DNA of 40,753 nucleotides from Candidatus Woesearchaeota archaeon. GTDB lineage: Archaea; Nanobdellota; Nanobdellia; SCGC-AAA011-G17; GW2011-AR20. This document shows, piece after piece, positions 22,142-29,629 of this stretch (its first letter is position 1; every line of letters starts with the position of its first letter). The stretch lies in the NCBI GenBank assembly GCA_018303005.1, contig JAGVYY010000016.1, positions 1 to 40,753 on the forward strand, given 5' to 3'. The position numbers and the translations under genes were made by a program. The notes below the pieces were generated by a model. The model ran no database searches, was not told where the DNA came from, and was given only the letters and a program-made list of their open reading frames with translations.

Positions 22142-22537
22142 ATGAACAGTATTACTAATAATGGACAGGTTGAGAAGATAAGACATTCCTGTGCTCATGT
22201 CCTGGCCCAGGCTGTGAAGGAATTATACCCTAAATCTAAACTAGGCATTGGGCCTGTTATTGAGAATGGATTCTATTATGATTTTGACAATCTAGAAATC
22301 AAGGAAGAAAACCTGAAGAGAATCGAGGACAAGATGAGAGAGACAACAAGAAAAGACTATAAATTTGTAGAAAGCAGGAAAACTAGAAATGAATCTCAAA
22401 TAATATTGAAAGATGAACCTTATAAATTAGAACTACTAAAAGATTTAAAAGATGATGAAATTACATTTTATCAGGATAGTGATTTTATTGATTTGTGTAA
22501 AGGACCTCATGTAAATTCGAAAACGAGAAAGAATTAA
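22142..22537 (+). pseudogene. thrS: Threonyl-tRNA synthetase 5' fragment (N2/SAD editing domain; no TGS domain visible)
   Basis: IRHSCAHVLAQAVKELYPKSKLGIGPVIENGFYYDFD...DFIDLCKGPHV then frame break. Confidence 0.8.
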
Positions 22538-22545
22538 ATGAATAT

Positions 22546-23796
22546 TTGAAACAACAAGAAGAGGCTGAAAAGAGGAATCATATAAAACTAGGAAGAGAAC
22601 TTGGCATATTTATGATTTCTGATCTGGTTGGGAAAGGATTGCCCATATGGCTGCCGAAAGGTAATATAATAAAAGAAGAGATTGAAAAACTAGTCAAGGA
22701 GAAAGAAGAAAAAGCAGGATATATCAGAGTAACAACACCACATTTAGGCAAAAAAGAATTGTATCTTAAATCAGGTCATTTGCCTTACTATAAAGACAGC
22801 ATGTATCCTGAAATGGAAATGGATGACGGCAAATATTACCTAAAGGCAATGAACTGTCCTCATCATCATTTAGTGTACAAGCATGAGATTAGAAGTTACA
22901 GAGATTTGCCGCTAAGAATAGCTGAGTATGGAGTTTGTTACAGGAATGAACTATCCGGGACTTTAGCAGGTTTGTTAAGGGTCAGAATGCTAGCGATGAA
23001 TGATGCCCACATATACTGCACAAAAGAACAAATTGAAAATGAATTTAAAAACGTAATAAAGCTGGTTCAAGAATATTATGAAATTTTCGAATTAAGAGAT
23101 TACTGGTTTAGACTTTCTAAATGGGATCCAAAAAATAAGGAGAAATATATTAATGAACCTGAAAATTGGGAATACACAGAGAATATCCTGAGAAAAGTTT
23201 TAAAAGAATTGGATGTTAAATTTTTTGAGGTTGAAGATGAAGCTGCATTTTACGGACCTAAAGTAGATATTCAATTTAAAGCTGTAACTGGAAGAGAGGA
23301 GACTATGTCTACTATCCAATTAGATTTTGCAGCCAAGGAAAGATTTGACTTAACTTATCAAGATAAGGATGGGACTGAAAACAAGGATGTTTTTGTCATT
23401 CATAGAGCTCCTTTATCTACACATGAAAGATTTATGGCTTTCTTGATAGAGCATTTTGCCGGTAAGTTTCCTGTTTGGTTAAGCCCTGTTCAGATAAGGA
23501 TACTGAGTATAGCTGACAGGAATGTCAGATATGCCAGAGATGTTTTAAAAAAGCTAAGCATTGAAGGTTTTAGGGTTGAATTAGATGATAGAAACGAAAG
23601 CATTTCAAAAAAAGTAAAGGATGCACAATTACAGAATATCCCACTGACAATAACAATCGGCGACAAGGAGATAGAGAACAAAACACTTGCTGTAAGAACT
23701 CTTGATGGAAAAATGAAATATGGAATGAAGATCTCTGAATTTTTAAAGATTATCAGAGATAATCTGGAGAATAAAAATGTTAAATTCATTCTCTAA
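22546..23796 (+). CDS. thrS: Threonyl-tRNA synthetase catalytic and anticodon-binding part, frame-displaced from 22142-22537
   Basis: In-frame from FENEKELNEYLKQQEEAEKRNHIKLGRELGIF; MNCPHHHLVYKHEIRSYRDLPLRIAEYGVCYRNE; C-terminal anticodon-binding domain. Confidence 0.88.
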   Translation: MKQQEEAEKRNHIKLGRELGIFMISDLVGKGLPIWLPKGNIIKEEIEKLVKEKEEKAGYIRVTTPHLGKKELYLKSGHLPYYKDSMYPEMEMDDGKYYLKAMNCPHHHLVYKHEIRSYRDLPLRIAEYGVCYRNELSGTLAGLLRVRMLAMNDAHIYCTKEQIENEFKNVIKLVQEYYEIFELRDYWFRLSKWDPKNKEKYINEPENWEYTENILRKVLKELDVKFFEVEDEAAFYGPKVDIQFKAVTGREETMSTIQLDFAAKERFDLTYQDKDGTENKDVFVIHRAPLSTHERFMAFLIEHFAGKFPVWLSPVQIRILSIADRNVRYARDVLKKLSIEGFRVELDDRNESISKKVKDAQLQNIPLTITIGDKEIENKTLAVRTLDGKMKYGMKISEFLKIIRDNLENKNVKFIL

Positions 23797-24259
23797 GTTA
23801 GAAAGCTCCAAGGTATATAAATCCTGGAAGAAAAAAAACAAGGACAGCTTCCTATGCAGCTGCTTTTTTACTGATGATGAAAACAACTGGCAATTTGATT
23901 TTTATCTGCCCAAAAAAGACATGATAAAAACATTTGTCGTTGAAGACCTGAATATAAAAGAGCTTGCGGATTCAAGAATATTCAGGAACGATAAATCCAA
24001 TATGAAAGTTCTAAATCTTGATGATGTCAAGATAGATTTTGACGAAGCACTAAAGATCATGGACAATATTAAAAATCAAAAATACAAAAGTGAAAACGTC
24101 CTTAGAAAAATTGTTGTGCTGCAATATATTAAAAGACAGCTCTGGAACATGACTTTTCTTATGTCATCCCTTAATCTGCTGAATGTCAGGATAGATTCTG
24201 AATCAGGTAAGGTGCTATCTGAAAACGTGGAAAATATAATGAAATTCAAGGCGAGTTAA
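23777..24259 (+). CDS. Hypothetical protein overlapping the thrS 3' end
   Basis: 160-aa ORF, 20-nt overlap with thrS; no family recognised. Confidence 0.6.
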   Translation: MLNSFSKLESSKVYKSWKKKNKDSFLCSCFFTDDENNWQFDFYLPKKDMIKTFVVEDLNIKELADSRIFRNDKSNMKVLNLDDVKIDFDEALKIMDNIKNQKYKSENVLRKIVVLQYIKRQLWNMTFLMSSLNLLNVRIDSESGKVLSENVENIMKFKAS

Positions 24260-24275
24260 CAATACATAGATAGAG
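24256..24275 (+). repeat. 20-bp direct repeat, copy 1 (TTAACAATACATAGATAGAG)
   Basis: Exact match to 25815-25834; also left arm of an inverted repeat AACAATACA-9nt-TGTATTGTT (24258-24284). Confidence 0.95.
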
Positions 24276-24503
24276 TGTATTGTTGCGTTAAGGGAGATAA
24301 GTCTTCATAACGCTCAATATTTAATTGTTCTAACTTTGTGATAAGATATGAAGTTAGAGAGATTGAGCAAGAGATAGAAGAAACATTTCCTGAAAACAGA
24401 ATAGTTGATTTCTTCTTGGTTCAAGAAGATTTCATTTCTACAGGAGTGTCTCCTTGCGTATTTGAATAAGTGGTTAGATCTGATTAAGATGAGTAAGATT
24501 TGA

Positions 24504-25232
24504 TTAGTTTTTGGCAATTCCCCATAATAACTCAAAGTGTTTTCTATAGCTATCTGCAACATTTTTATCCTTTATTAGAAATGCATATGGATTTTCTGAA
24601 AACACTGCAATAGCGACATAATTTCCTACAATAACTGTTTCCTGGAATTGAGCAAATTCTTTATCAACATATCTTATCTTAGTTAATGGATTTTTTTTAA
24701 TATCTTTTCCACCCCACCGAACTGATTCATCAAATACTTGTCTAGAAGGAAGTTTATTGGCAACTCTTCTCTTATGTAGATTTAACCACCAAGTAAAACC
24801 CATAATCTTAGCAGCTATTGGTCCTCCTCCAAAAGTATTATATTCCTTACCTTTTACATTTATCATGATGCTATAAACTTCTTTGATTCCCCTAATACCT
24901 TTATAGATTGATGCTAATTCTTTTTCTCTTACAGCCCTTTGTTTCTCTTTTAATTCAGGCAAAATTTCCTCAAATCTTTTCTTTTTATCATCAATGAAAT
25001 TAAAAAAATGTTCTGGATTAGTAGCTTGATAGATTTTTCTCTTACCTTCTAAAATATAATTTACTAATCCTTTATCAATTAAAGAATTAAGATCCCTATG
25101 TAGTGTTGAATTGGGAAGTTTTGATTTTTCTAGTACGGTTCCAGCAGATGCAGAACCTAGTTCTAACAATGCTAAGTATACCTTTATCTCAGTAGAGGTT
25201 AGTCCTAAGTCTTCTAGTATATCTGTGTCCAT
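24504..25232 (-). CDS. TrmB-like transcriptional regulator
   Basis: LEDLGLTSTEIKVYLALLELGSASAGTVLEKSKLPNSTLHRDLNSLIDKGLVNYILEGKRKIYQATNPEHFF. Confidence 0.88.
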   Translation of the reverse strand: MDTDILEDLGLTSTEIKVYLALLELGSASAGTVLEKSKLPNSTLHRDLNSLIDKGLVNYILEGKRKIYQATNPEHFFNFIDDKKKRFEEILPELKEKQRAVREKELASIYKGIRGIKEVYSIMINVKGKEYNTFGGGPIAAKIMGFTWWLNLHKRRVANKLPSRQVFDESVRWGGKDIKKNPLTKIRYVDKEFAQFQETVIVGNYVAIAVFSENPYAFLIKDKNVADSYRKHFELLWGIAKN

Positions 25233-25269
25233 ATTATTGACAATTCTGCTCTCTTTATAATTCTTATTA

Positions 25270-25293
25270 TTATCCTACCATATGGTAGGATAA
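25270..25293. promoter_or_regulatory. 24-bp perfect palindrome TTATCCTACCATATGGTAGGATAA, candidate operator
   Basis: Lies between the divergent TrmB-like gene and the 25327 ORF, next to a TATA-like TTATATACC. Confidence 0.8.
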
Positions 25294-25326
25294 ATACTTA
25301 TATACCTTTATGATACAATAATTACT

Positions 25327-25773
25327 ATGGAATCAAAACAAAATGCACAGAAAAAAATGAAGCAGATTAGACGAAACCAAAAAGTTTATGGTGTTCCTAA
25401 ACTGCCTCAGAAAATAGATGCTATGTATGATAATATATGTAGAGGCAACCTTGTGGCTTATTATTTAGATGCCGATCCTGTTAGAGAAGATCCCGTATAT
25501 CTAAAATTAAAAAAACTTAAGGCTACTTATTCTTGGGATAGCCCCAACGGATCAGAAAGATTCGCGCAACATCTTATGTTCGATATGGTGGCTAGACAAA
25601 TGAGGGAAAAAACTTATTATCATATTAGAAAAACACCTTTGTGGCTTCTTAAGTTTGAGTTCGGTGTTAGGCACGAAACTAATCGTGAGCTTAGAAGGGA
25701 AATAGATAGAAGATTGGAATATATGTTTAGAAATGAAGACAAAGAATGGCTTGATTATAAACTTTATAAATAA
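25327..25773 (+). CDS. Hypothetical protein divergent from the TrmB-like regulator
   Basis: 148-aa basic ORF with palindrome and TATA-like box upstream; family not recognised. Confidence 0.65.
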   Translation: MESKQNAQKKMKQIRRNQKVYGVPKLPQKIDAMYDNICRGNLVAYYLDADPVREDPVYLKLKKLKATYSWDSPNGSERFAQHLMFDMVARQMREKTYYHIRKTPLWLLKFEFGVRHETNRELRREIDRRLEYMFRNEDKEWLDYKLYK

Positions 25774-25814
25774 TTCTAATCCTCCATTTTTTGATAGATC
25801 CAGATTCCGCTAAC

Positions 25815-25834
25815 TTAACAATACATAGATAGAG
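25815..25834 (+). repeat. 20-bp direct repeat, copy 2
   Basis: Exact match to 24256-24275. Confidence 0.95.
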
Positions 25835-25878
25835 ATAGTTTTATATATTCCCTTTGGTTTTATCTTAAAAGAAAAAAG

Positions 25879-26871
25879 ATGGCAGATTTACCTTTTATTC
25901 AAATTCAGGATATTACAAAAACTTTTGGCATGAATGTTGTCTTGGATGATATAAACCTTGATATTTCTTATGGTGATATATTTGGCATTATCGGAATAAG
26001 CGGTTCTGGAAAAACAACACTACTAAACATATTAATCGGCTTTTTCAAGCCTGACAAGGGGTCTGTAATCTTCCAATCAAGAGATTTGCTAAAGGATTTA
26101 AGCAATGTCAAGCAGCAGTTCGGCTTTGCATCACAGTCAGGCTCTTTTTATGACAAATTGACTGTAAAGGAAAACCTGTTTTATTTTGGCAGGATGTATA
26201 ATGTGTCTGATACAGAACTAAAAGATATGGTACCCGAACTATTAAGGCTTGTTGAACTTGAGGACGCTGAAAATACATTAGGTGGGAAACTGAGCAGCGG
26301 GATGCAGAAGAGACTAGACATAGCATGTTCTCTTGTGCACAATCCAAAGGTGTTGATATTAGATGAACCGACAGAAGATCTTGATTTGATTCTGAGACGA
26401 GATATCAATAATCTGCTAAAAAAGATCAACAAGGAAAAAAATGTCACGATGATAATAACGTCGCACCTGCTGAGCGAGATGGAAGATGTATGCAGCAAAG
26501 TAGCAATCCTGAACAATCATAAGATACTAGCATCAGGAACTGTTGATGAACTGAAAAATTCTTTAAGCAAAAGCATCGAGATTATTTTAAAGACTGAAAA
26601 CAAAAATTATGAGTATGCGATGAAGCAGATCAATGCATATAATGAGGTCAAAGGTGTTAAAGTCTGGAATGAAAGATTGTATGTTTACAGCCAGAATCCT
26701 TTATTTACATTGCAGAACCTAATAAGATTGATAGATGTAAAAAAAGAGAGAATAGTTGAAATAAATGTAAACAGACCAACGCTAAATGAAGTTTTTGAGG
26801 AATTGATTAATAGGGAAATGGAAGTAAAGAAAGAATATGGTAAAGGAAAAGCTGTTATCAAAAAACAATAA
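25879..26871 (+). CDS. ABC transporter ATP-binding protein
   Basis: Walker A GISGSGKTT, LSSGMQKRLDIACSLVHNPKVLILDEPTEDLD. Confidence 0.95.
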   Translation: MADLPFIQIQDITKTFGMNVVLDDINLDISYGDIFGIIGISGSGKTTLLNILIGFFKPDKGSVIFQSRDLLKDLSNVKQQFGFASQSGSFYDKLTVKENLFYFGRMYNVSDTELKDMVPELLRLVELEDAENTLGGKLSSGMQKRLDIACSLVHNPKVLILDEPTEDLDLILRRDINNLLKKINKEKNVTMIITSHLLSEMEDVCSKVAILNNHKILASGTVDELKNSLSKSIEIILKTENKNYEYAMKQINAYNEVKGVKVWNERLYVYSQNPLFTLQNLIRLIDVKKERIVEINVNRPTLNEVFEELINREMEVKKEYGKGKAVIKKQ

Positions 26872-28485: not shown

Positions 28486-28582
28486 CTAAAATTGTCAGGG
28501 TTAACTTCTTTTTTTATTTATCCTTAAGAGACCATAGTAATTAATATATCTTAAACGATTCTTAGATAATTATCAATTTCTT

Positions 28583-29553
28583 TGTACTATCCCGAAATAA
28601 TGTTCTCTCGATAAATAAGTTAAGCCATAATGTTAAGCAAGTTTTTATGAAAAAGCTTAACAAGAGAAAGATAAAATGGATAATAAGGCAAATGGGTAAG
28701 AGAGAACTTGGATTATACACAATAGCTAAGCTACAAGATATAACCCCACAACATGCAAGACGTGTTTACAGAAAATATAAGGGAATAAGAGATCCAGTGC
28801 TATTGTCTGCAGGAAGAAAGCAGATTGATATAAAAGAGGATGAAATAAATCTTGTTGAAAAAGCATTCAAGCATTATGGTGTAGGTGCAGTAATGCTTGA
28901 AAAGATAACAGGCATGCCCCATAACAAGATACACAAAATACTAAAAGATAAAGGCTTAGCAAGGAATGAGCCTATGAAGCAATATCAACGTAAATGGGTA
29001 AGGTATGAGAAAAGGCATAGCCTGAGCCTTGTTCATAGTGACTGGTTTGAGTTTAACAGCTGGAAGATAATTCTGGTAGAGGATGACGCTTCAAGATTCA
29101 TTACAGGATATGGCAAGTTTAAGCATGCTACAGCAGAAAATACCTTAAAGGTTATTAAGCAGAGTTTGAAGTATGGCAGGCCTAAACAATTCCATTCAGA
29201 CCATGGAAGTGTTTACACAAGTAATGATGATTCCAATAAGAAAAAGGGGAAAGCCAAGTAGAAGCGTATCTAAAAAGCATGGGAGTACAGCAGATATTTG
29301 CTAGAGTAAAACATCCACAAAGCAATGGAAAGCTGGAAAGATTGGTAGGAACAATAAAGAAGCTATGGAAGCATACAGGAACATTTGAGAAAGCAATAAA
29401 GCTTTATAATTATACAAGACCACATATGAGCTTAACAACAAGTGAAGAAAGATTAAGAACACCATACCAGGCATTCAAAGAAAAAAAGAGGAAAAAATAA
29501 GAATGTGTAACGCCCAACTAAATCAGCGAAGGAACATTAATTCAGGACAACAC
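28583..29553 (+). mobile_element. IS481-like insertion sequence, 971 bp, flanked by 15-bp direct repeats (28568-28582, 29554-29568)
   Basis: AATTATCAATTTCTT on both sides; imperfect terminal inverted repeats (TGTACTATCCCGAAATAATGTTC vs GTGTTGTCCTGAATTAATGTTC). Confidence 0.85.
28647..29500 (+). CDS. DDE (rve/IS481-like) transposase in two frames (28647-29261 and a -1 frame ending 29500)
   Basis: LVHSDWFEFNSWK, QFHSDHGSVYTSN, then in the -1 frame ESQVEAYLKSMGVQQIFARVKHPQSNGKLERLVGTIKKLW; D-D-E triad. Confidence 0.85.
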
Positions 29554-29629
29554 AATTATCAATTTCTTGGCAACATTTAAATAATGAAGGATTATGTAAG
29601 GAATCAGGCATTTACAGAGGTTTAATATT

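Follow-up and report, generated by a model that had tools for sequence, protein, structure and literature searches.

Comparison with known elements

Insertion at a set place upstream of host promoters is known for several groups of mobile elements. In bacteria, TnGBS, ISLre2 and some ISKra4-group elements, which are mobilized by DDE transposases of the Mutator-like kind, insert 15-17 bp before the -35 of sigma-A promoters, mostly in one orientation, and some of them carry large cargo (PMC3942029). In archaea, the DDE element ISH6 (p-MULT 2) has an AT-rich target preference which was proposed to favour promoters. Its motif AANATNTT is itself the duplicated target, and no phasing to the BRE-TATA core promoter was reported (PMC3942029). 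In yeast, the retrotransposons Ty3 and Ty1 integrate next to Pol III promoters and are positioned there by transcription factors including the TBP-containing TFIIIB, a guidance by protein that is proven. Mobile insertion cassettes and other transposase-less passenger elements, in which IS-like ends surround passenger genes, are known from bacteria (PMC3913671).

Here, we focus on a module that deviates from these systems. It lies on contig JAGVYY010000016.1 of a Candidatus Woesearchaeota archaeon (GCA_018303005.1), and the window analysed is the whole stretch of 40,753 nucleotides. The module is best explained as the transposase-deleted remnant of a cargo transposon family, apparently undescribed, of tiny-genome (DPANN) archaea. 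Nearly all members examined sit at one position just upstream of a host core promoter, which is left intact. TnGBS/ISLre2 and Ty3 are the nearest precedents. Unlike TnGBS and its relatives, the present family is found at archaeal BRE-TATA promoters, has a transposase that looks IS6/IS1-like, with a borderline match to the Mutator profile, and a 9-bp target-site duplication (TSD), and is seen in both orientations equally (25 left and 23 right counts). In contrast to bacterial passenger cassettes, the module retains a 3' relic of its transposase gene and belongs to a promoter-targeting archaeal family. Searches of the open-access literature for archaeal promoter-targeted transposons or DPANN cargo transposons, and for an archaeal element phased to the core promoter, found none.

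Anatomy of the module

A first-pass annotation had reported an exact 20-bp direct repeat on both sides of a TrmB-like gene and a gene for a 148-aa protein, with a palindromic arm just inside the left end. This observation was confirmed. The 20-mer TTAACAATACATAGATAGAG is exact at both places (Table 1). It has no other match in the window with up to three mismatches, and dinucleotide shuffles gave none. In the whole 1.0-Mb assembly the 18-mer AACAATACATAGATAGAG occurs only at these two places, with two other sites differing by 3 mismatches, so that it is not a common genome-wide motif; a common motif would have counted against an inserted module. The first copy overlaps the stop codon of the 160-aa ORF, the second lies 44 bp before the start of the ABC ATPase gene, and the inner palindromic arm is real.

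What had been missed is an inverted pair at the inner edges, matching at 16 of 20 positions, which joins the direct repeat exactly at TAGATAGAG. The anatomy is therefore TAGATAGAG, then an element running from TGTATTGTTGCGTTAAGGGA to TCCGCTAACTTAACAATACA, then TAGATAGAG again: a 1550-bp element with terminal inverted repeats (TIRs) and a 9-bp TSD. Only these 9 of the 20 repeated bases are duplication, the other 11 being the tip of the right TIR and a look-alike, TTAACAATACA, that precedes the left TSD. With the TIR profile of the family the window pair scores 50.9, with the TSD identical at 9 of 9 positions.

Table 1. Positions of the features in the window (+, forward strand; -, reverse strand;., not stranded).
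Positions	Strand	Feature
22142-23796		threonyl-tRNA synthetase (thrS), read as two ORFs (131 and 416 aa)
23777-24259	+	host gene upstream of the insertion: 160-aa ORF, collinear in G009
24256-24275	+	left copy of the 20-bp direct repeat: 11 TIR-like bases plus the 9-bp TSD
24256-24266	+	TTAACAATACA, TIR-like bases outside the left TSD; stump of an older element at the same site, or chance
24267-24275	+	left TSD, TAGATAGAG
24276-25825	.	the transposon, 1550 bp, transposase-deleted
24276-24295	+	left TIR, TGTATTGTTGCGTTAAGGGA
24462-24503	+	relic of the transposase gene: last codons, LNKWLDLIKMSKI and stop
24504-25232	-	cargo gene: TrmB-like HTH regulator, 242 aa (Pfam TrmB, 9.1e-17)
25270-25293	.	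perfect 24-bp palindrome, TTATCCTACCATATGGTAGGATAA, probable operator of the divergent cargo genes
25327-25773	+	cargo gene: orphan 148-aa protein
25806-25825	-	right TIR, TGTATTGTTAAGTTAGCGGA; same end on the sister element of contig C4
25815-25834	+	right copy of the 20-bp repeat: last 11 bases of the right TIR plus the 9-bp TSD
25826-25834	+	right TSD, TAGATAGAG
25835-25847	+	targeted core promoter of the ABC operon: BRE-like ATAGT, then TATA box TTTATATA (25840-25847); conserved in G009
25879-26871	+	host gene downstream of the insertion: ABC transporter ATPase
28568-29568		IS481-like element (rve domain) in two frames (28647-29261 and 29279-29500)

The left part of the module keeps the end of a transposase gene. 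Frame +24276 ends in LNKWLDLIKMSKI and a stop, the conserved C-terminus of the transposase, and nucleotides 24465-24505 are 93% identical over 41 nt to the intact transposase gene of a relative (locus L178; E 1.4e-10). The motif N[KR]W[LM][DES]LI appeared once in 300 shuffles of the window. The TrmB-like gene follows immediately and is convergent, an arrangement (transposase, then convergent cargo gene) seen in many intact elements. The module is not alone in having lost its transposase, since the element of genome G035 (L064), with a Schlafen AlbA_2 protein as cargo, also keeps only a transposase fragment.

The 148-aa protein is an orphan. No relative, and no other copy of its gene, was found in 145 relatives, in 371 genomes of the phylum or in viral contigs. 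Pfam, PADLOC and NCBIfam gave only sub-threshold noise, and a single-sequence AlphaFold model (pLDDT 45) was not interpretable.

An empty site was found in the relative genome G009. There thrS, the 160-aa ORF, the ABC ATPase, the permease and the following synthetase gene are collinear without the module. The same 11-nt spacing separates the TAA of the 160-aa ORF from TAGAGATAG, and TTTATATAT follows. The intergenic region of G009 reads AGTTAAATTTTATTAATTAGAGATAGATTTATATATA, while the collapsed site of the window reads AGTTAACAATACATAGATAGAGATAGTTTTATATATT. G009 is the only clear empty site examined and belongs to another genus (67% identity in the ABC ATPase).

The interpretation given in the first-pass annotation is supported in part. 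It is correct that this is an inserted cargo module without an intact recombinase, and that its removal puts the upstream ORF next to the promoter of the ABC operon, as G009 shows. However, the repeats are neither attL/attR of site-specific recombination nor a 20-bp target duplication: the duplication is 9 bp here and in relatives, the ends are transposon inverted repeats shared with many elements, and the remnant of a transposase assigned to the DDE group lies inside.

A family of cargo transposons

A DNA search with the module returned two inverted matches to its right end on contig C4 of the same genome. They are the ends of a 1918-bp element with TSD TTGTTAACA, which carries a DNA methyltransferase (PADLOC MTase_II, 4.6e-121; Pfam N6_N4_Mtase) and a 237-aa protein without a family match, probably the endonuclease of this restriction-modification system. 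On contig C52 a 3602-bp element with TSD AGTATACAG carries an intact transposase together with a CAP-like protein of 410 aa and a membrane protein, the last two assigned by eye.

The transposase has about 310 residues, with an N-terminal CxxC zinc ribbon followed by a DDE domain. D127, D195 and E238 of the protein from the same genome are invariant, and their assignment as the catalytic triad is inferred from the alignment. The best NCBIfam match is IS6 (NF033587), with 52.4 and 62.1 bits, below the curated cut-off of 125. The TIR resembles the tip of IS26, but its own tips are T[GA] rather than the GG of IS6 (T in 94% at position 1 over 98 ends). The duplications are 9 bp rather than the 8 bp of IS6, and the elements carry cargo, for which a single IS6 example is named (PMC7986276). 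With IS1 and IS1595 the transposase shares the N-terminal zinc ribbon (NF050000), and these families make duplications of 8-9 bp. The IS1 profile (NF033558) gave 51.7 and 31.5 bits, below its cut-off of 100, and the DDE region scores at least as well with IS6. The Mutator profile PF00872 gave 23.0 bits in the protein P0003, just above its cut-off of 21, and 16.4 bits in the protein from the same genome, below it. AlphaFold gives a confident model (pLDDT 85) whose best PDB matches are DDE transposases and integrases such as ISCth4 (a weak match), TnsB, Mu and retroviral integrase, at low TM-scores.

A profile scan of 84,980 genomes kept 80 transposase loci, nearly all DPANN by title, including the complete AR20 genome. 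Intact relatives occur across Pacearchaeota, Woesearchaeota and Nanoarchaeota. When paired TIRs and an exact 9-bp TSD around the transposase were required, 44 of the 80 loci gave a pair, while a column-shuffled profile gave none in 240 tries. The remaining 36 loci gave no pair (contig ends, decay or divergent ends, without distinction between these). Lengths run from 1993 to 7723 bp with a median of 3877.

Cargo was assigned by clustering, with Pfam tests of representatives. DNA methyltransferases are present in 19 of 50 elements (11 N4/N6, 3 C5, 3 D12 and 2 Eco57I-type), a count that rests on blastp clustering with one or two members per cluster profiled. ABC transporters (by eye and clustering), TrmB-like regulators (4 elements including the window) and oxidoreductases were also found. 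A small zinc-ribbon protein of 56-60 aa recurs in elements that carry DNA methyltransferases (L155:3397-3567, L160:1291-1473, L163:9668-9850). Two large elements (L146:3618-9338 and L149:4624-9302) have as cargo long, probably surface-exposed proteins shared by two different lineages. Two contig ends of genome G021 (C14 and C19; loci L065 and L066) appear to carry the two ends of one element with the same TSD TTGAAAATG; elements of this family may break assemblies. Relatives of the transposase were also found on two IMG/VR contigs (L210 and L211, 57% and 42% identity), so viruses or plasmids may ferry these elements.

Insertion at core promoters

The relation to promoters was first seen in about 16 elements and then measured. 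In 50 elements the TATA octamer (TTTAWAWA, at most 1 mismatch) begins exactly 5 nt outside the TSD 48 times, some elements counting on both sides, against a background of 0.78 per offset. It lies at offset 3-7 in 45 of 50 elements against 3.3 expected, the other five having only a weak TATA (2 or more mismatches), and offsets 0-2 and 8-10 are empty. In a held-out set without the elements used for discovery, 30 of 35 have the octamer at exactly offset 5, against a mean of 0.58 and a maximum of 4 in 2000 resamplings. Distant IS6-like transposases in the same genomes were considered as a targeting control, but no ends could be defined for them, so these numbers stand without a second-family control.

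The aligned sites show a BRE-like AAA directly outside the TSD, two free positions and then the octamer, with the promoter pointing away from the element. In the window the arrangement is TAGATAGAG-atagt-TTTATATA at the promoter of the ABC gene. Ordinary genes of the same contigs show a similar motif with TATA 29-30 nt before ATG, and about 16 target genes have this leaderless spacing. Target genes include TFB, an eIF2-alpha-like protein and ribosomal L21e, all recognised by eye only. ARAGORN found no tRNA genes downstream of targets lacking an ORF.

If the landing point is set by the promoter, a second insertion at one promoter should reuse the same 9 bp. The AR20 genome is consistent with this: two elements abut across a single CGGCGAGGT (L114:10038-10046), and the promoter-proximal one is flanked by CGGCGAGGT on both sides, although the far end of the distal element was not found.

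Interpretation

We consider the module to be a transposase-deleted derivative of this DPANN cargo transposon family, with a probability of roughly 0.92. In this view, an IS6/IS1-like zinc-ribbon DDE transposase would bind inverted repeats of ~21-26 bp (TGCATTGTTAMSTTAACGGG-like) and join both ends to target strands 9 bp apart, at a cut fixed relative to the core promoter. The TrmB-like protein would be a repressor of the divergent cargo genes, with the palindrome between them as its probable operator. The sequences themselves establish the ends, the TSD, the transposase relic, the empty site, the family and the phasing to TATA. The DDE chemistry with its 9-bp stagger, transposition itself, mobilization in trans, the regulatory role of the TrmB-like protein and its operator, and the positioning of the transposase by promoter-bound TFB/TBP rather than bare BRE-TATA DNA are inferred. 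The copy can no longer move by itself. A transposase elsewhere in the cell, such as the relative on C52, might move it in trans, but this is uncertain since the window TIRs match each other imperfectly and match those of the C52 element less well.

The origin of TTAACAATACA is evenly balanced between two views. It may be the end of an older element that had used the same 9-bp site and was then deleted via AGTTAA microhomology with the ORF stop codon, or native sequence that resembles the TIR by chance. The AR20 junction, AAGTTAACAATACC-CGGCGAGGT-TACATTGG, is very similar to the left boundary of the window, and AGTTAACAATACA matches known ends such as that of L137. However, AGTTAA is present in G009 and the 7-nt gap to the TSD equals that in G009, so that only CAATACA needs explaining.

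It is possible, at somewhat less than even odds, that the fixed distance comes from a transposase reading the bare DNA motif AAANNTTTAWAWA. The AAA and TATA positions are strongly conserved, G at the last TSD base (60%) exceeds the 29% of ordinary promoters, and many transposases have plain DNA target motifs. On the other side, the motif is otherwise that of ordinary promoters, many targets have the leaderless spacing, and degenerate TATA boxes are still hit at the same offset, none of which is decisive. An equally tentative reading is that a widespread family of archaeal DNA transposons steers itself to the upstream edge of host core promoters through the TFB/TBP-promoter complex, an archaeal counterpart of Ty3-type targeting, and uses this harmless site to move restriction-modification, transport and metabolic genes between DPANN archaea. 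If so, promoter-factor-guided integration would occur outside eukaryotes with the archaeal homologues of the same factors.

An island or plasmid bounded by attL/attR of a tyrosine recombinase, with the palindrome AACAATACA-N9-TGTATTGTT as the core site, is very unlikely. The direct repeat with inverted arms at the left junction would fit, but the 9-bp spacer differs between elements while the arms stay, as expected of target duplications and not of att cores, a DDE transposase gene or its relic lies inside the elements, and the right junction lacks the second arm. Survivorship of harmless insertions is least likely, since selection does remove gene-disrupting insertions but cannot produce near single-nucleotide phasing with empty flanking offsets.

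DPANN archaea have very small, dense genomes in which a random insertion is likely to be harmful. A transposon that lands between the upstream gene and the BRE of the next promoter avoids breaking either, and its cargo offers a concrete route for the horizontal spread of restriction-modification and nutrient genes in these lineages.

Other features of the window

The IS481-like element in the same window is unrelated to the module. It has imperfect ends, TGTACTATCCCGAAATAATG and TGTGTTGTCCTGAATTAATG, is flanked by a 14-15-bp direct repeat, (A)ATTATCAATTTCTT, and is absent from the collinear G009 locus. Upstream of the module, the threonyl-tRNA synthetase that is split in the window is a single 579-aa ORF in G009; the split may be a frameshift, a shortened gene or an assembly error.
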